A DNA stretch of 64,000 nt. Origin: Phycisphaeraceae bacterium (GTDB lineage Bacteria; Planctomycetota; Phycisphaerae; Phycisphaerales; UBA1924). Under the pieces are notes generated by a model, which had not been told where the DNA came from, did not search any database, and saw only the letters and a program-made list of their open reading frames with translations. A program made the translations under genes and the position numbers. Shown piece by piece: positions 29,427 through 51,025 of this stretch. The number at the start of each line of letters is the position of its first letter. Position 1 is the first letter of the stretch. The stretch is taken from positions 103,253 through 167,252 of the forward strand of contig JAHBWW010000006.1 in the NCBI GenBank assembly GCA_019636795.1. The letters are read 5' to 3'.

Positions 29427-30233
29427 ATGTACCCAATGGCCGATGGCATCGAGTCCAATAACCGCGACTTGCTGGAGCGCCTCCACCGCTCTTTCGAGGG
29501 TCCGTTCACCCCCGCCGATGCGGCCGCGGTGCTGAGCCTAGAGCAGCCGCGAGCGCGCCGCCTGTTGGCCTACCTCGCGTCGCGGGGATGGCTCTCCCGC
29601 GTGAGGAGGGGGCTCTATACAACGGTCCCACTCGGGGCGACCTCACCTTCTGATTGGCGAGAGGACCCGTGGATTGTCGCCGCGAGCACGTTCGCGCCGT
29701 GCTACATCGGTGGGTGGAGCGCGTGCGAGCACTGGGGGCTTACCGAGCAGGTCTTCCGCGACATCGTCGTAATCACGGCGCGCGCGGTCCGCAGCACCAT
29801 GCAGACCGTGCAGGGCACACCGTTCCTGATCAAACAGCGAGCAGAACAACTTCACTTCGGCACACGGACCATCTGGCGGAACCGGCTGCGTCTCCTCGTC
29901 TCAGACCCCAGCCGAACGGTCGCGGACATCCTTGACGACCCATCGCTCGGAGGCGGCCTCCGTCACATCACCGAGGTCATCGGTGAGTACCTTGATGGTG
30001 AGCACCGCGACACGGACACGCTCCTCAAGTATCTCGAACGCCAGGGCAACCGCACAGCGTTCAAGCGGCTGGGTTACATCCTCGAGACCACGCGCCGCGA
30101 GCCGAAATTTGCGGAACTCTGCCGCGAGCGCATCAGCACGGGGCTCTCGGCGCTCGACCCTTCGGTCAAGCGCAAGGGCACGATCTCCAAGCGCTGGAAC
30201 CTCCGCGTCAACGTCGGACTTGACGCCTCCTGA
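29427..30233 (+). CDS. abiEi: AbiEi-type antitoxin of a type IV TA pair
   Basis: A 268-residue protein of the AbiEi family, the antitoxin and autorepressor of AbiE toxin-antitoxin and phage-resistance systems. The N-terminal winged helix (residues about 15-60: LEQPRARRLLAYLASRGWLSRVRRGLY) is followed by the AbiEi core (YIGGWSACEHWGLTEQ; DPSRTVADILDDP). Start at 29427, with a second ATG three codons later. A TATACT box at 29377-29382 with CTGGAC 17 bases upstream is a possible promoter. The toxin gene begins 9 bases downstream, the usual order. Confidence 0.85.
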   Translation: MYPMADGIESNNRDLLERLHRSFEGPFTPADAAAVLSLEQPRARRLLAYLASRGWLSRVRRGLYTTVPLGATSPSDWREDPWIVAASTFAPCYIGGWSACEHWGLTEQVFRDIVVITARAVRSTMQTVQGTPFLIKQRAEQLHFGTRTIWRNRLRLLVSDPSRTVADILDDPSLGGGLRHITEVIGEYLDGEHRDTDTLLKYLERQGNRTAFKRLGYILETTRREPKFAELCRERISTGLSALDPSVKRKGTISKRWNLRVNVGLDAS

Positions 30234-30242
30234 AAGCCACGC

Positions 30243-31631
30243 ATGATCTCACGCATCCACATCGATGAGCGTGTGCGCGAATGGGGCCTGCGCGAGGACG
30301 TGATCGAGAAGGATTACGTGCTCGGGTGGCTGCTCTGGGGAATCGGGACCGAGCCAGAACTCGCCGAGCAGTGGGCATTCAAGGGGGGAACCTGTCTCAA
30401 GAAGTGCTACCTTGAGACGTACCGTTTCTCGGAAGACCTCGACTTCACCATCGTCCCCGGCGGTCCGATCAACGCGGAGGATGTTGAGCCCGTCCTGCTC
30501 CGGATGCTCGACCGTGTTGGGCAAGAGTCGGGCATCAACTTCGCGCAGCAGGCGCCCCGGTTGCGGACGGCCGCACCGGGACGCTACACCGAGGGGCGCA
30601 TCTACTACATCGGACCGCGCCAGAGTCCCACTGTCGCCCGTGTGAAGCTCGACCTGAGCGGCAGCGAAGTCATCGCACGCCCGACCGCTGTGCGGCCCAT
30701 CTCCCACCCGTACCCCGATGACCTGCCCGACCCGGGCGCGGTTCGGTGCTATGCGTTCGAGGAGGTCTTTGCGGAGAAGATCAGGGCGATGGGGGAGCGC
30801 GGTCGCCCGCGCGACCTCTACGACATCGTCAACCTCTACCGGCGCGAGGACCTGCACGGCCAACGTGACCTCATCGTCACGGTCCTGCGCGAGAAGTGCC
30901 ACACCAAAGGAATTCCGGTCCCGACCTTCCGCGCAATTGAGCAGGCGCAGGCACGGGCCGAACTTGAGGCCGAGTGGCAGAACATGCTCGGGCATCAGCT
31001 CCCCGTCACGCCGCCCTTCGAGGCGTTCTGGTCGGAGCTTGCCGCGCTATTCGAGTGGCTCGAAGGCGTCAGAGAGCCCGTCGTTCAAGACCGCATCAGC
31101 GTTGCCAGTGCCGGTGCCGAGGACGCATCCTGGACGCCGCCGCGAACCGTCACCACCTGGGGTGGGGCTGCACCCATGGAATCGGTGCGCTTCGCCGCGG
31201 CGAATCGGCTCTGCGTCGAGCTTCGCTACAACGGTACGACGCGCCTGATCGAGCCCTATTCCCTCCGGCGTTCGCAGGCGGGAAACCTCCTGCTTTACGC
31301 CATCCGCACGGACTCTCGGGAGCCGCGCGCATACCGCGTGGACCGCATCCAGGGGGTCCGGGTCATGGACCGCGTCTTCACGCCTGTCTACCGAGTCGAG
31401 ATCGGCGCCGCAGGCCCGCTCTCGGCCCCGCCGGTCACGGATGTCAGGCAATCGGTGCACCGCGCGCGGCCGTCAAGCTCTGAACCCGTCTACATCATCC
31501 AATGCCCGTCCTGCGGCAAGCAGTTCCGCAGGAAGACGCGAGACATGACGCTCAGGAGTCACAAGACGCCGGACGGGTACCAGTGTCACGGTGGAGGACG
31601 AGGCTCTCTTGTCGATACACGATACGGGTGA
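30243..31631 (+). CDS. abiEii: AbiEii-like nucleotidyltransferase toxin fused to WYL-like and zinc-finger domains
   Basis: A 462-residue protein. Residues about 10-225 are the AbiEii nucleotidyltransferase: FKGGTCLKKCY and FSEDLDFTI carry the G-G/S and DxD features, and FAEKIRAMGERGRPRDLYDI is the conserved later motif. AbiEii-type toxins are usually about 300 residues. Here residues about 310-395 look like a WYL domain (LCVELRYNGTTRLIEPYSL...VDRIQGVRVMD). The C-terminus has a Cys/His finger (CPSCGKQF...HKTPDGYQC). The extension may sense a ligand or nucleic acid. Co-transcription with AbiEi is very likely. Confidence 0.82.
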   Translation: MISRIHIDERVREWGLREDVIEKDYVLGWLLWGIGTEPELAEQWAFKGGTCLKKCYLETYRFSEDLDFTIVPGGPINAEDVEPVLLRMLDRVGQESGINFAQQAPRLRTAAPGRYTEGRIYYIGPRQSPTVARVKLDLSGSEVIARPTAVRPISHPYPDDLPDPGAVRCYAFEEVFAEKIRAMGERGRPRDLYDIVNLYRREDLHGQRDLIVTVLREKCHTKGIPVPTFRAIEQAQARAELEAEWQNMLGHQLPVTPPFEAFWSELAALFEWLEGVREPVVQDRISVASAGAEDASWTPPRTVTTWGGAAPMESVRFAAANRLCVELRYNGTTRLIEPYSLRRSQAGNLLLYAIRTDSREPRAYRVDRIQGVRVMDRVFTPVYRVEIGAAGPLSAPPVTDVRQSVHRARPSSSEPVYIIQCPSCGKQFRRKTRDMTLRSHKTPDGYQCHGGGRGSLVDTRYG

Positions 31632-41762: not shown

Positions 41763-42095
41763 CCGCTCGCTCAGGCTGCGCCAGGGGGTGGGGGTGACTC
41801 CCCGCCGCCACACCGACGCGTCCCTCAACACAACCCAAACACTTCGGAGGCATGCTCCGCCCCCGCCAGAGCGCGTTCGCCACGAGGGGGTGGGTATGCG
41901 TGCGGGGGGTTTTTCTTCGCCGCGTGATGGAGCCGCCGCGCGTCTGACGCGGTCCTCGGTGCCCTGTGCATGCCCCTGAGCATGCCCTGCACCTCAGAGA
42001 CACCCTTTCAATCAGTTCCCGATCCCCGTTCATCGGCCTCCAGCCACGATTTCACCCACCCCAAAGCACCAGAGTGAACCCCCCGCAAGACAACA
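41763..42095. other. intergenic stretch with short direct repeats
   Basis: About 330 bases with runs of G and C (GGGGGTGGGGGTG, GGGGGGTTTTT) and GCATGCCC twice, 12 bases apart (41968 and 41980). The same 8-mer lies twice upstream of parA. It may be part of an origin or a transfer site, or chance. No gene is supported; an ORF starting at 41966 merely reads into the real gene at 42785. Confidence 0.35.
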
Positions 42096-42785
42096 ATGAG
42101 CAGGCTCACACCACGCTCCGAGTCCCCAGCGCTGCTCCGGCTGACCGACCGGGACGAGGAGGTTCTGGTCACGCTCGCCACCAAGGTGCGATTGATGACG
42201 CTGGACCAGATCGTGCGCACCTGGTGGGGGCGCACTCCAGCATCGACCGCCACGAGAACAGCGTCGCGACGCCTCTTGCGCCTCGTGTCATCGGGGCATC
42301 TCGCAACCATGCGCCGGCCGGCGAGATCCGAGTTGCGCCTCACAGCGCCTCTGGCCGTCTGGAAGCCGGGCCGCCCGAAGCCGGCCTTCGCTTCACTCGC
42401 GCAAGTGGGCCGGAGCCGACTCCGGGGTCCGGTCCGCTCCACGCGGATCTATCTCGCATCCCCCGGCACTGCCCGCCGGATCTGCGGCGTCACGACACGC
42501 CCCCCGCGCCTCGGCGAAGTCACGCACGACCTGCACGTCGCTACGGTGTTTCTGTACTTCCGATTGCACCGAGCCCCAGAGGCCGCCCGCTGGCGAGCCG
42601 AGTGGATGCCCGACCCCGCGCGGCTGGCCGGGAAGCGTCGCACGCCCACGGCAACCCCGGACGCGCTCATCGAGCGGGCGCGTCACCCCACGGCGATCGA
42701 GTTCGTCGGGCACTACACGCCCGACAAGCTGCTCCGCCTGCACGAGCACTGCGCCGCACGACACACCACGTACGAGCTCTGGTGA
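42096..42785 (+). CDS. winged-helix protein, replication-relaxation-like
   Basis: A 229-residue basic protein. An N-terminal winged helix (LTDRDEEVLVTLATKVRLMTLDQIVRTWW..., about 16-75) resembles the replication-relaxation/MobC-type proteins beside conjugation genes. The later part has HDLHVATVFLYFRLHR and a PTAIEFVGHYTPDKLL segment. It is a likely accessory protein for mobilisation or replication. The stop shares its last base with the next ATG (TGATG). Confidence 0.62.
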   Translation: MSRLTPRSESPALLRLTDRDEEVLVTLATKVRLMTLDQIVRTWWGRTPASTATRTASRRLLRLVSSGHLATMRRPARSELRLTAPLAVWKPGRPKPAFASLAQVGRSRLRGPVRSTRIYLASPGTARRICGVTTRPPRLGEVTHDLHVATVFLYFRLHRAPEAARWRAEWMPDPARLAGKRRTPTATPDALIERARHPTAIEFVGHYTPDKLLRLHEHCAARHTTYELW

Positions 42786-43483
42786 TGGACCATCACGACC
42801 GTGAACAACGCGTGCTCAAGCACATCGCCGCTTTCCGAGTGTCGTTGCGGGCGGTGATCGCACGGCTCTACTTCGACGATCGCAACAGCGCATGCCAGAA
42901 CGTGCTCAGTCGGTTGAAGTCGCGCGGCTGGCTTATGTCGCATCAATCGTTCACAGGGACTCGGCTGGCCTACTACCAGCTCGGCGTGCGCGGCGTGCGT
43001 CACTTTCGACTGCCTCGAAACCGCGCGGAGCACTACGACGAGCGTGCGCTCAACACGCACCTTTGCATCCTGTGGTGGAGCTGCATGAGCAACACGCTGC
43101 GCTACCGAGTCGAACCGGACCAGGTCGCCGCGGCCATCGGATGCGAGACCCTCACAGGCGAGCACTGCATGCAGCCGAGCGACCGGGGTCCACGCTTTGT
43201 CCGCGTGTTCGTCCTCGGGCCGGACTCGGACGACCAGACAGCACTGTATCGCATCAAGGAGCGAATGCGAGAGGCCGCAGCAACCGCTGTTCTCTGCGAC
43301 TGGGTGCGCCACTCACTCTACACGTTCGCCATTCTGACCGACTCCCCGCACCGGCTTCGTCGTCTGAAGGAGGCCGTCGCGAGCGATACGTTCGACCCCC
43401 CGGGACTCGTGCGCGTGTACCAGGCACCGGGCATCGCAACCCTGCCAAAGCACTTGGCGATGCGAGCCAGCAATCAGGAGTGA
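42785..43483 (+). CDS. second winged-helix protein of the mobility block
   Basis: A 232-residue protein coupled to the previous gene by TGATG and ending 3 bases before the coupling ATPase. The N-terminal 75 residues are a winged helix (REQRVLKHIAAFRVSLRAVIARLYF...YYQLGVRGVRHF). The rest (NTHLCILWWSCMSN...) is not recognised. The similar build of the two neighbours suggests a pair acting on DNA at a transfer or replication origin (inference). Confidence 0.6.
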   Translation: MDHHDREQRVLKHIAAFRVSLRAVIARLYFDDRNSACQNVLSRLKSRGWLMSHQSFTGTRLAYYQLGVRGVRHFRLPRNRAEHYDERALNTHLCILWWSCMSNTLRYRVEPDQVAAAIGCETLTGEHCMQPSDRGPRFVRVFVLGPDSDDQTALYRIKERMREAAATAVLCDWVRHSLYTFAILTDSPHRLRRLKEAVASDTFDPPGLVRVYQAPGIATLPKHLAMRASNQE

Positions 43484-43486
43484 CTC

Positions 43487-46400
43487 ATGAACGATTCACG
43501 CTTCGAGACGCCGCACGTACCTCCTGTCGGCGCTATGGTCATGAAACGCTTTCCGCTTGAATACGACCCCACGTCAGCGACGCAGCTCAATGCGTCTCGA
43601 CTTCCGCACCCGCTCAGCACCGCCGACATGTCGCTCGCGCACCGCTGCGAGCCATGGGAGGCCGACCGCGCGAAGCACGCGGTCGACATTCTGGGCTTGA
43701 TGCCCACCGGCATGCTCGTGATGCTCGTGCTCTCGATCTCGGTGACCCGCATCGCCCCCTTCTATGTCGCGATCGGATTAGCGGGCCTGGTTGCGACGCT
43801 CATGCTGGTGTTGCTCTTCCGGGCTGGCCTGCTCTCGCCTCGGTACCTCCTGATCGCGGTGCTCGCGCCGGCCATGGGCATCGCGTTTCTCTACGCGGTC
43901 TCCAGCGTGATCGACGACCGCCTGCTGGTGACAGCCGTGCTCGCGAGCATCGGCGCTGTCCTCTTCCGGCTGCTCGGCACAGGCCCAGTGTCCTTCTATC
44001 AGCAGTGGATCCTGACCCATCCGCGGCTCACACCGTCGACACGCAAGGCGCTCAGCGCTGAGCGTGCCCCCGCGCCGATGTTCTGGCCGCTGTACCTGAC
44101 CATGGTGATCGCCGTGCTTCTGCCGAGGTACTCCTCCGCGCTCGCGACCCTGCTGATCGCCGCGCTCAACACCGGCGTGGTGCTCTGGTGGCTCCGAGGC
44201 CGAGCGCCGCTTCGCGGAGCGCTCGATGCGCTCGGGCACTATCTCGCGTATGGGCGGGACGACGCCGGTGCTCCGGGCGTCTGGCGTCCGCGCGACCACC
44301 AGCGACGACGCCACTGGACCTTCGTGACTCTGCTTAGCACGATCTTCTTCACCCTCGGTCTCGGGCTCACCCTGTATGTGCCCGGCGATGTCGCACGCTT
44401 AGGGCTGTCGCGATTGCTGGTGACCGGCGCATCAGAATCGTTGCCGATCCGCAAGGTGTTTGACCATTCCACCGCTCCGGTGGACTGGGACAAGGCACCG
44501 CCCCCGCTCGTGCCCACGGTGAATCGACCGCAACTGCCGGAGATCGCACCGTCGGACACCCTTCGCGACTGGAAGATCGGCGCGAACGAGCGCGCCGCCC
44601 GCCTCAACGAACGGGTGCAACGAATCAGCAGTCAAGCGGACGCGGACGATGACCAGTTCCGTCGGCGGTATGTCGCGAGAGCGTTCCCATCGTTTATTCG
44701 CGACGAGATCGGAGACCGACCGCATACATGGCTCTTCGCGGTGCTCGCCGCGATCCTCCAGGGCCGGCTGCATTACGGGTGGCTCCTGCCGGTGTCCCTT
44801 CTGCTCGCCGCAACCCTGCCGAGTCTGGTTCTCCTTGCCGTCTACGCGCGGCCGCTCGCCTTCCTTATCGAGCTTCGTCAGCGGGTGGAAGGGAGTTCGG
44901 CGTCGCCAGGCCTGGACCACGCACCTGACCGGACGGAGTGGAACTGGCGCGTCGACCGCGTTGCTGAGTCGGTCCACACCGCGACCGAGCCCCTGTTTGG
45001 TTCGGCGGTCTATGAGGCCGACCACCTGTTCCTCGGAGTTGAGCCTTGCATGGGCTTCCCGGTGCTGCTCCACCGGCCGCTGTTGAATCAGCACTGCTAC
45101 ATCGTCGGCGAGACCGGTTCGGGCAAGACCAGCCTCGGCATCATGCCGATGCTGATCCAGCTCCTCCGTCAGCACATCGACCCCTCACGCGAAGACAGTG
45201 CGAGGAGCGAACCGCCCATCGTGATCCTTGACCTCAAGGGCGACCCTGCGCTGCTCCAGACCATCAAGGCAGAAGCCGACGCACGGCGAAAGCGTCACGG
45301 AGTGACGGACCCCAACGACCCACGCTACGCGTTCCGGCTCTTCACACCCGAGGTGGGTTCCGAATCGCATCATTTCAACCCGTTCGCGAGCATGGACTCC
45401 AAGCGCCGCTCACCGATGCAACTGTGCGAGCTCATCCTCGACTCGCTCGCCCTCTCACACGGCGAGGGATACGGCCGGAGCTACTACACCCGCCGCAACC
45501 GCATGATGCTCTACGAAGCCCTGCAGGACCCGGCCAAGCCTCGGTCGTTCGAGGAGCTCTATCAGGTGCTCGAACGCCTCGCTCGCCGCGAAGGCGCGGC
45601 CGATGTGTTCGAGCTGGCCGCCACCGTGCAGTCCCTGTCCCGCTACAAGAATCTCGCGTCGGACGGATCGGCGCTGCCCGAGTCGGCCACGATCCACTTG
45701 CCAACCGCGTTGGAGCACCGGCAGGTCGTGTACTTCTGGCTTCCCGCGGCGCTGGAAAGCGTGAGTGTGCGAGAGATCGCCAAGCTCGCGCTGTACTCGC
45801 TCCTCACCGCGGCCATCGACCGGCAGCGCGACGGAGCCCAGGACCGAGAGACCTACCTCTTCATCGACGAGTTTCAGCGCATCGCCGGCGAGAACTTCCG
45901 CATCATCCTGGAGCAGGCCCGCAGCTTCGGTGTCCGGGCCATCCTCGCCAACCAGAGCATCAGCGACCTCAAGACGCCCGACACCGACCTCCGGCCTGCC
46001 ATCCGGACCAACACGCGTGTGAAGATGCACTTCTCGGTCACGGACCCGGGCGAGATGGAGGACCTCTGCACGATCAGCGGAGAGGAGCTTGCGATCTCGC
46101 AGTCCGTGGCGTGGCGCTTCGACAGTGTCAAGTATCGGCGATTGGGGGATGGATCGAGGGAGACGATGCAAGTGCCGCGGTGGAGCCTTGCCGGCATGAC
46201 CGAGTCAACCACGCTGAAGTCGAGACTAACCAAGAGCGACATCATCCGCACTTCAGACCACCCGCAGGAGTTCATCCTGCACGTCTCTCAAGGGTCGGGC
46301 TACACCCAGTTCGGTGGCGTGCCGATCCCCGTTCAAACACGTTGGCCGATCCCGTTCAGCGTGTACAAGCGGCGAGCGATGGAGCCATGGCCAAATCTGG

Positions 46401-46564
46401 GTCGAGGCGTCGGCGTGAAGGCCGCCGTGCAGAAGCAATCCCCCCGGCAGATCGACGATGAGGCCCAGGTCGAGTTCCTGAAGCGAACGCGGCCGCTGGC
46501 AGAATCGGTCTACCGGGAACTCGAAAGGCAGTACGGACCCACGCCCGTCGAGGCTACGCCATGA
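43487..46564 (+). CDS. VirD4/TraD-like coupling ATPase
   Basis: A 1025-residue membrane ATPase. The first 450 residues hold about six membrane helices in two groups (about 65-165 and 200-300, with another pair at about 420-455). The motor domain begins at about 500: Walker A VGETGSGKTS, VILDLKGDPAL, and Walker B YLFIDEFQRI, followed by RAILANQSISDLK as in TraM-recognition/VirD4 proteins. It would feed DNA into a type IV secretion channel. VirD4 is usually 500-700 residues; this one has an enlarged membrane part. No other type IV genes are visible. Confidence 0.82.
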   Translation: MNDSRFETPHVPPVGAMVMKRFPLEYDPTSATQLNASRLPHPLSTADMSLAHRCEPWEADRAKHAVDILGLMPTGMLVMLVLSISVTRIAPFYVAIGLAGLVATLMLVLLFRAGLLSPRYLLIAVLAPAMGIAFLYAVSSVIDDRLLVTAVLASIGAVLFRLLGTGPVSFYQQWILTHPRLTPSTRKALSAERAPAPMFWPLYLTMVIAVLLPRYSSALATLLIAALNTGVVLWWLRGRAPLRGALDALGHYLAYGRDDAGAPGVWRPRDHQRRRHWTFVTLLSTIFFTLGLGLTLYVPGDVARLGLSRLLVTGASESLPIRKVFDHSTAPVDWDKAPPPLVPTVNRPQLPEIAPSDTLRDWKIGANERAARLNERVQRISSQADADDDQFRRRYVARAFPSFIRDEIGDRPHTWLFAVLAAILQGRLHYGWLLPVSLLLAATLPSLVLLAVYARPLAFLIELRQRVEGSSASPGLDHAPDRTEWNWRVDRVAESVHTATEPLFGSAVYEADHLFLGVEPCMGFPVLLHRPLLNQHCYIVGETGSGKTSLGIMPMLIQLLRQHIDPSREDSARSEPPIVILDLKGDPALLQTIKAEADARRKRHGVTDPNDPRYAFRLFTPEVGSESHHFNPFASMDSKRRSPMQLCELILDSLALSHGEGYGRSYYTRRNRMMLYEALQDPAKPRSFEELYQVLERLARREGAADVFELAATVQSLSRYKNLASDGSALPESATIHLPTALEHRQVVYFWLPAALESVSVREIAKLALYSLLTAAIDRQRDGAQDRETYLFIDEFQRIAGENFRIILEQARSFGVRAILANQSISDLKTPDTDLRPAIRTNTRVKMHFSVTDPGEMEDLCTISGEELAISQSVAWRFDSVKYRRLGDGSRETMQVPRWSLAGMTESTTLKSRLTKSDIIRTSDHPQEFILHVSQGSGYTQFGGVPIPVQTRWPIPFSVYKRRAMEPWPNLGRGVGVKAAVQKQSPRQIDDEAQVEFLKRTRPLAESVYRELERQYGPTPVEATP

Positions 46565-46575
46565 GCGGTCCAAAA

Positions 46576-46906
46576 AAGACAAAAGAGCCAGGCTCTCTTG
46601 TCTTCCCGCACGTCGCCGGACACACGGTCCGACCGGCCTGCCGCGTCGCTGCTCCAGAAGAGGAGCTCCACGGGCGCTCTGGCGTGCGGGTCACGAGTTA
46701 CAGGCGGGAGCACTGGGTCCCTTGCGGGTTGTCCCGCCTGCCGTTCCTCCTTCCCCAATCGGGGTTGCGGGAACGGGACGCAAAAAAAGAAGCCGGAGCT
46801 CCCGCCATCGCGGGACACACCGAGGCACCCTTGCCAAAGGCCATGGGCCTGTGGCAAGCTCACGAGCGCCGGGAAAGGGTGGACTTGTCTGTAAGGACAA
46901 GCCACC
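46576..46906. repeat. run of six stem-loops in one intergenic region
   Basis: Hairpins at 46576-46604 (AAGACAAAAGAGCC-A-GGCTCTCTTGTCTT, 13 of 14 paired, with a T-run on the minus strand), 46701-46740 (CAGGCGGGA/TCCCGCCTG), 46741-46776 (CCGTTCC/GGAACGG, inner CCCC/GGGG), 46800-46815 (TCCCGC/GCGGGA), 46830-46858 (CTTGCCA/TGGCAAG, inner AGGCC/GGCCT) and 46878-46906 (GGTGG-CTTGTC/GACAAG-CCACC). The first may end the coupling-protein transcript, and the last lies just after the minus-strand gene. No ORF explains the middle ones. Confidence 0.6.
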
Positions 46907-46911
46907 ACAAC

Positions 46912-47178
46912 CTATATCGCGAGGAACCGAACGGTAACCAGCAGAATCATGAGCAGAGATGCTCCGACGATGGCGCCGGAGAACACTGGTCTTCTGGCGA
47001 AACCGTACGGCAGGACGCGCGTGAGAGAGCGCGACTCTGCGCCGGTTCCATCAGAGAGGAACCAGACCTCTTCGCCGATGCGTTCGACGACCTCGGGCTT
47101 GCCCGGGGACATCTTCTGCACCACCGTGAAGTTCCTCGTGATCGGCCCCTTCTTTGTCTGTACGACGAGCTTTGCCAT
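46912..47178 (-). CDS. small membrane-tailed hypothetical protein
   Basis: An 88-residue protein with a strong AAAGGAG site. Residues 1-55 are soluble and basic (MAKLVVQTKKGPITRNFTVV), and residues about 65-86 form one membrane helix (VFSGAIVGASLLMILLVTV). A tail-anchored layout is likely. No family is recognised. It faces the coupling-protein gene across the hairpin run and is transcribed away from the ankyrin gene. Confidence 0.65.
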   Translation of the reverse strand: MAKLVVQTKKGPITRNFTVVQKMSPGKPEVVERIGEEVWFLSDGTGAESRSLTRVLPYGFARRPVFSGAIVGASLLMILLVTVRFLAI

Positions 47179-47436
47179 ACATGTTCTCCTTTGGTTGTGC
47201 GGCCTTGCGGCCGCGAGTTGATACACCACAGCCATTGGCTCTGGCCTATCCAACCGGGAGACTTGGGGCCTCAAACCGCCGAGCATTGCCCGGCACCTCC
47301 TTTCCCGTTCTGGGTACTCGACCAAGACAGAAGGGGAAAAAATGACTTGTTGATGCGCACACCGCGCAACCGCCGCTCGCAGCGTATCACCCGGCCGCGT
47401 CGTTTCAAGGGCGTCGCCGCATCATGGAGAACCGCC

Positions 47437-48948
47437 ATGACTCGCATCCTTGTGCTGATCGTTGCTCTGATGCTCTGTGCGCCTCTCACGCACGCGCAAG
47501 AAAATGTCTTGCCTGCCGTGCTCCAACTTCACGACGCGGTGAAGAGAGACAGCCGCGACCTCGTCGGGAAGATGCTCGACAGCAAGCCCGAGTTCGTGAA
47601 CGCTGTCGATGGCCAAGGCATCCCGCCGCTCGCTTATGCGCCGAGCCCCCAGATGGCCGAGTTCCTCCTCCGTCGCGGCGCGAACATGCACCTCGCAATT
47701 GCTCATAGCACGGGCGGCGCGTGGACACCGCTCACGCATCACAGCCAGCGGGGGAGCGCGTCGATGCAAGCGGTGCTGGGTCGATACAACGGGTTCGCGT
47801 TGTATGACGGCAAGGACTCCACGGCGGTTGAGCGGCTGATCAGAGAGGTGCCCGCCACCGTCGGGTTCCACGAGCACACCACGGGGCGCACACTCTTGGC
47901 TGTGGCGGCCGGCGTCGGAGACATGAACGCCATACAGATGCTCTTGGCCGCCGGCGCGGACCCCAACGCACCGGACGTGTCCGGGCACGGGCCGGTCACG
48001 CATGCGGCTGCAGGCGGGAGCCCGGCGGCATACAAAGCACTCCGTGCTGCGGGGGCGGAACCTGACCTGCTCGCCGCCGTGGTTTTCGACGACATCAAGG
48101 TGATTCGCGCGATGCTTGCGGGCAACCCTGACAGCGTGCACAGCAGGTGCGTCCGACGGTTGACGCCACTACACAACGCCGCACTCGCGTCACGCGCTGA
48201 CGTCGTTCGCTTGCTGATTGATTCAGGCGCCGATGTGAACGCGGGAAGCCACAGCAACTGGACGGCACTCCACGTCGCTTCCGAGCGAGGCGCGGAGGAT
48301 GTGGTGCGCCTCCTTCTCAAGGCGGGTGCGTCGCCCACGGTTCAGACCAAGAACGGAACCTCGCCGCTCATGGAAGCGTGCAGGGAGTCCGAGACAGGTA
48401 TTGCACGGATCTTGATCGCGGCGGCGCCTGAGACCGCGACGCAACGGGACAGCCGGGGGCTACTCCCGATCGCCTTCTTGAACATTGCGCCAGACCCGGC
48501 TCTGATGAGGCTGCTGATCGAGGCCGCCCCCAACGAAGCCGGCGGCGAGAGCTACTCGCGCGCGCTTGCGTTGGCGATACGCCACGGGCTTCATGACAGC
48601 GTTGACCTACTGCTTCGCGCCGGGGCCGACCCGCTCGGCACGGATAAGAACGGGAACACCGCGTTCCATGTGGCCGCGGAGTGGGGACGAGCCAGAATCA
48701 TGGCCCGCCTGCTGGAGGGGGAGTACAGGGATTATCCGAATGTGGAACGCCGGACTCCGTTGCATCTGGCGGCGGTAAGTAACGACTCCGTCATCGTCGC
48801 GCTGCTGGCCGATGCCGGGGCCGCGTTGGATGCACGGGACAGGTCGAACCACACGTCGCTCCAGGCGGCGGGCGGTGCGAACCGCCCGAACGCTGTCAGA
48901 ACCTTAGAGTCGATCGAGCGCTCGCGCGCTGCGAAGAGCGGACCGTGA
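47437..48948 (+). CDS. secreted ankyrin-repeat protein
   Basis: A 503-residue protein. The ATG at 47437 begins a signal peptide (MTRILVLIVALMLCAPLTHAQ). The rest is a chain of about ten ankyrin repeats, visible as RTLLAVAAGVGDMNAIQMLL, TPLHNAALASRADVVRLLI, TALHVASERGAEDVVRLLL, TAFHVAAEWGRARIMARLL and TPLHLAAVSNDSVIVALL. Ankyrin repeats bind proteins; the partner, in the periplasm or outside, is unknown. The upstream 258-base gap holds no gene. Confidence 0.85.
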   Translation: MTRILVLIVALMLCAPLTHAQENVLPAVLQLHDAVKRDSRDLVGKMLDSKPEFVNAVDGQGIPPLAYAPSPQMAEFLLRRGANMHLAIAHSTGGAWTPLTHHSQRGSASMQAVLGRYNGFALYDGKDSTAVERLIREVPATVGFHEHTTGRTLLAVAAGVGDMNAIQMLLAAGADPNAPDVSGHGPVTHAAAGGSPAAYKALRAAGAEPDLLAAVVFDDIKVIRAMLAGNPDSVHSRCVRRLTPLHNAALASRADVVRLLIDSGADVNAGSHSNWTALHVASERGAEDVVRLLLKAGASPTVQTKNGTSPLMEACRESETGIARILIAAAPETATQRDSRGLLPIAFLNIAPDPALMRLLIEAAPNEAGGESYSRALALAIRHGLHDSVDLLLRAGADPLGTDKNGNTAFHVAAEWGRARIMARLLEGEYRDYPNVERRTPLHLAAVSNDSVIVALLADAGAALDARDRSNHTSLQAAGGANRPNAVRTLESIERSRAAKSGP

Positions 48949-49144: not shown

Positions 49145-50026
49145 CTACTCGTCATCGTCCCAGAGTTCGTCCTCGGGGACCGAGAGCATCACGACCAGCG
49201 TGTCCATGACACGGACGGGTAGATACGACTCGGTGACCGGGAGACGAGCCCGTAGGTCATCGTTGTAAATCCGGAACCAATCCCGCGCCCAGCCTCCGCG
49301 GTCAGTCACCGAAGCTGCTCCGGCTTCGAACTCTCCCCATGCCTGCTGTGCGCTCTTCGAGCGGAGCGGTCCGCGTTCACCGGGATAGACCCCGCGCTCA
49401 ATGAGCGGAGCGCTGGGCTTGACCCAGATCACCTTGCCGTTCCGGACGGCGGCAACCGCCCCGAAGAAGTGCGAGCACTCGACAGCGCGGAGGGCCGCGC
49501 TGACAAACGATGTCTGAAACGTGCTGGCGACGAGGTCGATCAGTTCGACCGAAAGTTCCTCCTGATTGACCAGCGGTTTCACGAGCCGGTCGGGCATGAG
49601 GAGGTGCGCCGCGAAGCAGTCGGCCTGCCGCTCGACCGGTGTTGAAGCGACGAATTCACTGCGAGATGGGTGACTCTTCCCGCCGGAACGCAGGTACTCG
49701 TGATGGGCCTCGATAAAGAAGTGCCCGAGCTCGTGCGCGAGCGAGAACCTAGTTCGAGGCGCATGCCGTTGCTCACCCGGGCGGTCGTACTTGGTGTTGT
49801 AGAAGCAGAGGAACCGGTCCTTCGATGGGTGGTACTCCAGTCGGCCATCGAAAGAGGCCTTATAGTCGCCTGGGCACAGCCGGAGTATGCGCCTCTCTGT
49901 GGCGGCGATTGCGATGGGATCGATCGGGGTCTTACGGATGTCCAGGCGCTCGATGAGTGACTCGGCATCGCCACGCGCGATGTCGAGCCTGCGTTCAAAT
50001 GCAGTTTGCTCAGGTTTCTTGGGCAT
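49145..50026 (-). CDS. ImmA/IrrE-family metallopeptidase
   Basis: A 293-residue zinc protease of the ImmA/IrrE group, which cleaves repressors in mobile elements and stress responses. The zinc motif FSLAHELGHFFIEAH (HExxH) is at about residue 95, and the family's later ERQADCFAAHLLMP, supplying the third ligand region, is at about 130-145. The start MPKKPEQTAFERRLDIARGD at 50026 overlaps the upstream acidic gene by 17 bases. The C-terminal 140 residues are not recognised. Its operon partners are a sigma factor and an acidic protein, one of which may be its substrate. Confidence 0.85.
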   Translation of the reverse strand: MPKKPEQTAFERRLDIARGDAESLIERLDIRKTPIDPIAIAATERRILRLCPGDYKASFDGRLEYHPSKDRFLCFYNTKYDRPGEQRHAPRTRFSLAHELGHFFIEAHHEYLRSGGKSHPSRSEFVASTPVERQADCFAAHLLMPDRLVKPLVNQEELSVELIDLVASTFQTSFVSAALRAVECSHFFGAVAAVRNGKVIWVKPSAPLIERGVYPGERGPLRSKSAQQAWGEFEAGAASVTDRGGWARDWFRIYNDDLRARLPVTESYLPVRVMDTLVVMLSVPEDELWDDDE

Positions 50027-50399
50027 CCTCGTCACCGTCGGGGGGGTCTTTGTCCTCATCGTCCTGCAGCGCTTCCTCGCGCTGACGCCGCATTTCTTCC
50101 TCGACCTCCGGATCGAGCTCGCCCTCGTTGCGATGCAGGCCGAGCACCTCACCAACCTCCTGATCGATCTCGGCGCTCCCGGCCGGCGAACCGGTTCGCT
50201 CGGCGTAGCTCCGCTCCACGGGTACACGCGAACTGGCGAGCCGGACGGCCTCCTCGATTTCCGCGTCCGACATGGGGAGCTCGGGCGCCGCGTCGTACTC
50301 CGCGGCGGCCTCCTCATCGGTGAGCGGCTGAAGATGCATCGCACGCTGCATCTCGTCAGCCATCTCCCGCCAGAATCTGTTGTCTCTTGGGTCGGTCAT
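50010..50399 (-). CDS. acidic protein between sigma factor and protease
   Basis: A 129-residue, strongly acidic protein (ending EALQDDEDKDPPDGDEDAQET). No named domain or membrane helix is seen, and a helical SDAEIEEAVRLASSRVP segment lies in the middle. It overlaps the sigma-factor gene upstream by 4 bases and the ImmA/IrrE gene downstream by 17. The position suggests an anti-sigma factor or the protease target, by analogy with ImmR/ImmA pairs, but this is inference only. Confidence 0.7.
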   Translation of the reverse strand: MTDPRDNRFWREMADEMQRAMHLQPLTDEEAAAEYDAAPELPMSDAEIEEAVRLASSRVPVERSYAERTGSPAGSAEIDQEVGEVLGLHRNEGELDPEVEEEMRRQREEALQDDEDKDPPDGDEDAQET

Positions 50400-51025
50400 G
50401 GCCTGGTGTCCTCGCGATAAGCGCCGCGCCGAATCAATTCCTCCCTGAGCTTCTTCCTTGCCCGGTGACGGGCTTGATGAATGGCATTCTCAGTCGTGTC
50501 GCCCCACTCTGCGGCGAGGTCGCCTGCCGAGGCGACCTCATCGGGCGCCGTGTCCCCTCGCCAGAAAGCGAGGTCCGCCTCGATGACTCGCCGCCCCTTC
50601 GGCGGCAGGGCCGCGATGGCCTCGCGGATCTGCTCGGCGCGGCGTTCGGCCTCGCGCCGCTGCTTCGGGGCGGATGGCTGATTCGGCGGTCTCCTCTTGT
50701 CGTGGTCAATGTCTTCCTGCGCGGCCTCGCACGAGTGTCGGTTCTCTGCCCGCATCTCGGAGCAAGCGCACCGATGCGCGAGTTTCATGAACCAGACCCC
50801 CAGCGATCCCTTGTCCGGATCGAAGGAGTTGATCTTGTCCACTACACGGATCAGGGCGCGCTGCCATGCGTCCTCCCAGACGCGCGGGAACCGCTTCTCC
50901 AGATACCCCCGCACGCGCGGGCCGTGCTCCCGAATGAGCGCACGAATCCCGTCCTCCTCCCCGCAGGCGATCTGCAGGGCAATGTCATAGTCCGATTGCG
51001 TCGAGGCGTCTTCATCCATTTGCAC
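50396..51025 (-). CDS. sigma-70-family (ECF-like) sigma factor
   Basis: A 209-residue protein. Region 2 is at about 30-90 (WEDAWQRALIRVVDKINSFDPDKGSLGVWFMKLAHRCAC). A charged linker follows, and region 4 at about 130-195 has the EVASAGDLAAEWGDTTENAIHQARHRARKKL helix-turn-helix. It is the first gene of a three-gene minus-strand operon with the acidic protein and the protease. It differs clearly from the sigma factor at 33995. Confidence 0.85.
   Translation of the reverse strand: MQMDEDASTQSDYDIALQIACGEEDGIRALIREHGPRVRGYLEKRFPRVWEDAWQRALIRVVDKINSFDPDKGSLGVWFMKLAHRCACSEMRAENRHSCEAAQEDIDHDKRRPPNQPSAPKQRREAERRAEQIREAIAALPPKGRRVIEADLAFWRGDTAPDEVASAGDLAAEWGDTTENAIHQARHRARKKLREELIRRGAYREDTRP

Follow-up and report, generated by a model that had tools for sequence, protein, structure and literature searches.

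A candidate structured RNA gene that converges on the coupling-protein gene of a putative mobilisation module in Planctomycetota

F-like plasmids encode FinP-type RNAs, which are small stem-loop RNAs that end in a terminator and are antisense to the traJ leader. The region described here would likewise specify a small stem-loop RNA with a terminator in an element of conjugative type; unlike FinP, this RNA converges on the 3′ end of a coupling-protein (T4CP) gene, and no antisense target stood out. One published study reportedly contains 104 candidate structured RNAs. Among the titles and abstract beginnings listed from open-licence PMC papers, none concerned an RNA of the present kind in Planctomycetota. 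The nearest precedent with experimental support is the sgm-sRNA of Salmonella Genomic Island 1 (SGI1), which experiments show to be required for mobilisation (PMC9299015). It lies between mpsA and oriT, in an element that uses tyrosine-recombinase-like Mps proteins, and is a 3′UTR-derived RNA whose parent transcript may double as a small-ORF mRNA and contains it in its 3′ part; its part in picking or docking the transferred DNA is a proposal only (PMC9299015). Compared with sgm-sRNA, the present case is alike in having an element-encoded RNA in a mobilisation module, a likeness of setting that is not sequence-based, and differs in that the RNA follows a T4CP gene, belongs to Planctomycetota and is known from sequence alone.

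The window is the whole stretch of 64,000 nucleotides that was analysed, from a Phycisphaeraceae bacterium. Between the T4CP stop codon (46562-46564) and the 3′ end of the minus-strand ORF 46912-47178 lies a gap of about 350 bases, and since both flanking genes end at it, it is a convergent intergenic region. Its features and neighbours are as follows.

42096-42785, plus strand: RR1, relaxase-like 'Replic_Relax' protein (PF13814, E 0.0015, 19.1 bits)
42785-43483, plus strand, frame 1: second small protein (MDHHDREQ...), between RR1 and T4CP
43487-46564, plus strand: T4CP, VirD4/TraG-like, 1025 aa (PF10412, E 2.6e-6; PF12696, E 1.6e-5)
46572-46577, minus strand: U6 tract of the terminator (AAAAAA on the plus strand), its last base 8 nt past the last T4CP stop base
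46578-46602, minus strand: terminator hairpin GACAAGAGAGCC-U-GGCUCUUUUGUC (z -4.9 for 46576-46604)
46605-46690, minus strand: multibranched domain whose consensus pairs the relative L016 also fits, some via compensatory change
46699-46742, minus strand: hairpin CAGGCGGGA/UCCCGCCUG of the 5′ part (z -3.1)
46736-46781, minus strand: hairpin with an inner stem (z -2.6)
46797-46818, minus strand: small hairpin CCCGC/GCGGG (z -3.0), with U7 (46782-46788) 12 nt further on
46828-46860, minus strand: hairpin with inner stem 46830-46842/46846-46858, also in the inverted-repeat list (z -3.2)
46876-46908, minus strand: hairpin that directly follows the stop codon of the small membrane-protein gene, with a counterpart in L016 (z -4.1)
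46912-47178, minus strand: small membrane-protein ORF, 88 aa (MAKLVVQ...), upstream of the RNA on the same strand

PF13814 relaxases combine a winged-helix N-terminus with a PD-(D/E)xK-like nuclease domain. RR1 of the window scores below the gathering score of this family (25.3 bits); 10 of 16 RR1 members match it at E <= 0.1, the best at 3.6e-5. RR1 relatives lie upstream of T4CP, and PD, E, K, H, C and YE.W are invariant in the 16 aligned. The predicted fold of RR1 (pLDDT 84) has winged-helix matches at Z of about 10, and Foldseek returned a weak match to Hjc resolvase (E 0.35) and none at E <= 0.001. The longer ORF 41966-43483, in the frame of the second small protein, has no Pfam match. 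A ParA gene is present in the window and in the related locus L123, and no T4SS channel gene was found among the proteins scanned, which were part of the ORFs. Given the T4CP, RR1 and ParA neighbours, a mobilisable or conjugative element is a plausible setting. PADLOC mad8, a defence-system ATPase, is a further match of the T4CP-like ATPases (E 1.5e-17 in the window, 1.3e-12 for L113:7525-9759), and the transfer role of the module is therefore not certain. Elsewhere the window encodes an AbiEi-like antitoxin and AbiEii toxin pair (type IV toxin-antitoxin, 29427-31631), a metal-efflux/copper cluster (1501-24590: OEP, CusB/HlyD, AcrB-type pump, multicopper oxidase, CopB and P-type ATPase), and, on the minus strand at 49145-51025, an IrrE-type peptidase (PADLOC capP, E 6.3e-43) adjoining a sigma-factor-like gene.

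The preliminary description had reported six hairpins in the gap, two of them with inner second stems, and both coordinates and folds agree with this: the inverted repeats are found at 46576-46604, 46736-46781, 46830-46858 and further places within the stated range, and the inner stems at 46741-46776 and 46830-46858. The gap holds six singly outstanding hairpins and one multibranched piece that adds two or three stems. Individual minus-strand folds give the six hairpins z-scores of -2.6 to -4.9, for segments picked after the hairpins had already been seen. In the multibranched domain, the closing helix CCCGCACG/CGUGCGGG pairs 46605-46612 with 46683-46690, and the inner helices are 46617-46621/46627-46631 and 46641-46645/46669-46673. 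Hairpin 46736-46781 consists of stems 46741-46747/46770-46776 and 46753-46756/46761-46764 around a 5x5 internal loop; by eye, its L016 counterpart has an equal shape with changed pairs, and this compensation was left uncounted because the hairpin is misaligned in alignment A7. Hairpin 46876-46908 is without a U tract. A genomic repeat was dismissed, the region being single-copy in the 3.49-Mb genome (the other 14 matches have E >= 0.58).

Read on the minus strand, the hairpin nearest to T4CP (hairpin 1) is a Rho-independent terminator. On that strand T6 directly follows the stem, while on the plus strand an A run precedes it. A script for a stem plus T run, applied to the 3 kb beyond the T4CP stop, shows one minus-strand terminator, which is hairpin 1, and its motif, GACA-N14-26-TGTCTTTTT, is found at no other place in the genome. 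A simple terminator scan found two sites against 1.1 expected; it missed hairpin 1 because the stem occupies part of the T run, listing instead a weak plus-strand site in the same hairpin, and it listed another short stem, 46803-46788, before a T run near hairpin 46797-46818. Compared with a plain intrinsic terminator, the hairpin and U6 are alike, and the GACA/TGTC ends of the stem are extra, as is the conserved domain next to it. One minus-strand G.U pair of the terminator hairpin is an A.C mismatch on the plus strand.

Folded whole, 46576-46906 has a minimum free energy of -165.2 (plus) and -172.0 (minus), with z-scores of -4.58 and -5.14, and none of 100 dinucleotide shuffles folds as well on either strand. 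Segment 46605-46690 (86 nt) alone reaches a z-score of only -1.2, a value equalled or bettered by 24 of 200 shuffles; its support is therefore comparative and not energetic. No match to Rfam release 15 (4227 families) was found at gathering score in the window; 46540-46940 gave four chance-level matches (best E 0.96), and ten related loci gave none up to E 0.5.

Comparative evidence for the window type comes from one close homologue. T4CP is present in 4 of 61 genomes (the own genome and 60 relatives), in 8 of 163 family genomes and, at E <= 1e-20, in 26 of 397 class genomes. Genome contigs supplied 67 loci, four of which (L016-L019) match over at least 500 residues. The closest, L016, is from Phycisphaerales OFTM186, has the same sequence as genome G250, and is one and the same sequence as L086 and L123. 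Its T4CP is 47% identical to that of the window, and right after the T4CP stop it has a homologous region with a related convergent ORF (28.8% identity over 52 aa between the membrane proteins, E 1e-5 in a two-sequence blastp). In an alignment made ignoring structure, all 33 consensus pairs of the core form in both sequences from which they were derived, four being double-changed and three single-changed. Wobble pairs in the core number two and three G.U in the two sequences and no A.C. The core consensus fold has a z-score of -6.4 on the minus strand, with none of 300 column shuffles as good, and -6.7 on the plus strand; for the whole region the values are -5.8 and -5.7. As core and whole-region energies are alike on both strands, energy picks no strand for the window, and its minus-strand assignment is made from the U tract and the five G.U cells. 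Support is lower for the 5′ part (46699-46908) than for the core, with a consensus z-score of -2.6 (3 of 300 shuffles as good) and -3.0 on the plus strand. Lack of conserved stems in related elements, or folding no better than shuffled sequence, had been set beforehand as grounds for refutation; both were checked, and neither was found.

Stops interrupt each of the six frames of the L016 stretch, which is therefore non-coding. Protein coding in the window was rejected as well: a plus-strand frame (46561-48948) runs for 795 codons without a stop, but the L016 counterpart is closed in every frame, and 46561-47424 differs from T4CP in codon-position GC (0.69/0.51/0.65 against 0.66/0.47/0.82). No sigma70-like promoter came up in a script search of the 700 nt that precede the window core, and the L016 core is preceded by only two, both weak, at distances of 234 and 501 nt. 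Covariance model R2, built from the window and L016, gave three matches in the 163 family genomes, of which one is the window and another has E 0.086. DNA-level relatives of the region were found neither in the 60 relatives nor in plasmids, and the exact pattern was not found in IMG/VR; T4CP relatives number two in IMG/VR, both weak, and four plasmid records with 23-32% identity.

Another group of T4CP loci, more distant from the window, encodes a better-documented RNA at the same place. At nine loci (L112-L120, seven genomes), one RNA of 125-133 nt has a common place and orientation beside T4CP. It comprises a closing helix GCGUGC/GCACGC, two inner hairpins and a terminator, and the two inner-hairpin loops, roughly 14-18 nt, resemble each other (near GACaAUcGaAAAACA). 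These loops are A-rich, with GACAAUCGAAAAACA in both in L119, and the pair may represent a double binding site. Six of the nine loci served as seeds for model R1, with which the three others score 96.6, 76.4 and 73.3 bits. In an alignment made to R1, which leans toward the structure of the model, 97.1% of 314 cells are paired and 14 of 35 pairs are double-changed; shuffles were as good in none of 500 cases on four of five measures and in 1 of 500 on the fifth, and the alifold z-score is -15.4. Read on the RNA strand, the cells are 282 Watson-Crick, 23 G.U, 3 A.C and 6 other. Single-sequence energies prefer the minus strand in eight of the nine loci, L114 preferring the plus strand.

A sigma70-like promoter sequence, TTGnnn-16/17-TAnnnT, 8-26 nt before the first helix, occurs in 8/9 loci against 249/54000 random positions, under a rule fixed after the nine sequences had been inspected; the ninth, L118, has TTGCCA-17-TAGGCT at 27 nt, just beyond the limit. 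A perfect GTTAGC-N6-GCTAAC dyad, a possible operator, overlaps the -10 element in L112, L114 and L119 and, with one mismatch, in L113, and the RNA may therefore be regulated. On 397 class genomes, R1 gave nine matches of at least 73 bits, all beside T4CP and six of them seeds, under strict filters by which weak matches can be lost. The next best, of 35 bits, lies in a genome (G162) without T4CP at E <= 1e-20 and was taken as chance. Fuller R1 scans of 17 and 27 genomes from two families gave no additional matches. In six of the nine loci a second minus-strand terminator, about 370-440 nt beyond the T4CP stop, separates the RNA from the ORF that comes next on that strand, and in L115-L117 the RNA terminator lies inside the last T4CP codons.

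In several of these loci a small ORF also stands divergent from the RNA gene. It encodes 45-51 aa with a single membrane helix (L113:9976-10131, plus strand; counterparts by eye in L112, L114, L115, L118 and L119) and has an apparent promoter of its own near the start codon. A type I toxin-antitoxin system was considered and rejected. The membrane ORF is present in six of the nine loci and none was seen in the window, and the best RNA-mRNA duplex near the ORF, taken as the best of about 11 segments, was 1.0-2.4 SD below the locus mean in eight loci (extremes -2.4 in L112 and -2.1 in L120) and never the best of its locus. In L116, where no such small ORF is visible, the best duplex site of the locus nonetheless fell there. 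The search for RNA-RNA pairing near the divergent small ORF gave no consistent antisense target.

Terminators of the window kind are more widely distributed. Other T4CP loci of the class have a minus-strand terminator with GACA/TGTC stem ends after the T4CP operon; among 23 loci the script found it in 14, including the variant forms GGCA in L123 and GAACA in L083, and two more were recognised by eye (L121, and L118 with a weak T run). The remaining seven are without such a terminator, L124 among them having a minus-strand terminator of other sequence. None of the 23 showed a plus-strand terminator at 150 nt or less from the T4CP stop, the nearest lying at 185. In L159, L083 and L084 the terminator is 0.7-1.1 kb past the stop. 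A looser pattern gave 75 rows in 28 T4CP genomes against 39 for a backwards-read control; in the hairpin comparison, which used 73 of the rows, strong hairpins accompanied 12 of 12 matches within 2.5 kb of T4CP (ten genomes) and 7 of 61 elsewhere. With the terminator removed, the 120 nt 5′ of it in RNA sense are unevenly folded across loci, with z-scores of 0.0 in the window, -4.9 in L123, -1.1 in L159, -2.4 in L083, -1.9 in L084, -3.2 in L121, -1.6 in L122, -1.9 in L119 and -2.1 in L115.

R1 matched neither the window nor L016 at E <= 5. Its weak matches at terminators (L122, E 0.0036; L083, 0.013; L019, 0.023) are equalled by opposite-strand matches in the same table. R2 matches at the expected place, mainly via the terminator, in L084 (E 0.0014), L121 (0.012) and L083 (0.018), in a table where chance-type matches start at E 0.025 to 0.16, and in the nine-locus family it reaches no better than E 3.9 (L119). 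With no significant cross-match between the models, the link between the two groups consists of position, strand, terminator ends and layout, a helix-closed domain shortly before the terminator being common to both. The membrane protein of the nine loci gives an hhalign probability of 0.7% with that of the window, no support for homology.

Taken together, the region is probably a minus-strand gene of a structured non-coding RNA in a mobilisation-type module. The RNA gene is well supported in the nine-locus family and moderately supported in the window, which has one close homologue and in which no promoter was seen. A structured RNA was one of three options offered in the preliminary description, and it has been strengthened by the minus-strand terminator, the pairing kept in L016, the one-strand wobbles and the promoters in the nine-locus relatives. 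Sequence comparison establishes the strand, the terminator and the conservation of the helices, and a promoter for the nine-locus relatives only. The module would run in the order relaxase-like RR1, small protein, T4CP, RNA and small membrane protein, and the RNA would consist of upstream hairpins (46699-46908), the core (46605-46690) and, at once, the terminator (46572-46602). Transcription in the window may start from an upstream promoter, possibly that of the small membrane-protein gene, and would proceed head-on toward the T4CP gene, ending just past its stop codon.

The principal alternative, possible though rather doubtful, is an ordinary structured 3′UTR of the small membrane-protein gene with an intrinsic terminator at its end and no separate RNA, in which the stems would protect the mRNA or block read-through. 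The membrane-protein ORF lies upstream on the same strand in the window and in L016, a strong hairpin directly follows it, and, as no promoter is near the window core, the window RNA may be a structured 3′UTR. Against this stand the promoters of their own in eight of the nine RNAs, the further terminator that separates the RNA from the next minus-strand ORF in six, and compensatory changes in the core that exceed what a terminator needs. The two readings can both hold, as sgm-sRNA is itself 3′UTR-derived (PMC9299015); the window RNA may be the 3′UTR of the membrane-protein mRNA or be cut from it.

An origin of transfer, in which the hairpins would be single-stranded DNA landmarks for the relaxase-like protein and T4CP and not RNA, is improbable. 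This option of the preliminary description keeps the T4CP and relaxase-like neighbours in its favour, PF13814 being classed as a MobC relaxase in PMC5357655, along with the inverted repeats and the loop word present twice in the nine-locus RNA. It loses ground to the promoters and terminators of the relatives, which point to RNA: in the window the U tract directly follows hairpin 1, and 8/9 relatives have promoters. The wobble pairs favour one strand by 23:3, though G.T in DNA could explain some, and RR1 is 3.8 kb away with no recognisable nic site. That a GC-rich gap merely folds well through its composition is very improbable; the core has 66% GC and the inner domain folds weakly alone, but the region-wide z-scores (-4.6 and -5.1 against dinucleotide shuffles), the compensatory changes in L016 and the nine-locus covariation speak against it. 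The attC boxes RYYYAAC and GTTRRRY flank the palindrome of such sites. A recombination-site array of this kind, the third option offered, or a REP-type repeat cluster would account for consecutive inverted repeats and is the least probable reading of all, as neither strand of 46560-46915 has either box, and there is no tandem unit and a single genomic copy.

On the reading as an RNA gene, this element-encoded RNA perhaps controls or assists transfer, a role suggested by its neighbours and by one precedent: like SGI1 sgm-sRNA, the small RNA may set or assist transfer or maintenance of the element. As it runs toward T4CP and stops just past the stop codon, it would be complementary to T4CP read-through. 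Possible modes are restraint of the T4CP operon in cis, loop pairing with another RNA, or binding of a module protein. It is unlikely, if conceivable, that the hairpin domain belongs to a fast-changing RNA family recognised by the relaxase-like protein or T4CP and helps to pick or dock DNA. A T4CP-linked family with a predicted promoter, a terminator and covariation provides concrete loci for the question of RNA in DNA transfer, namely whether such an RNA takes part in the transfer or may only regulate it.
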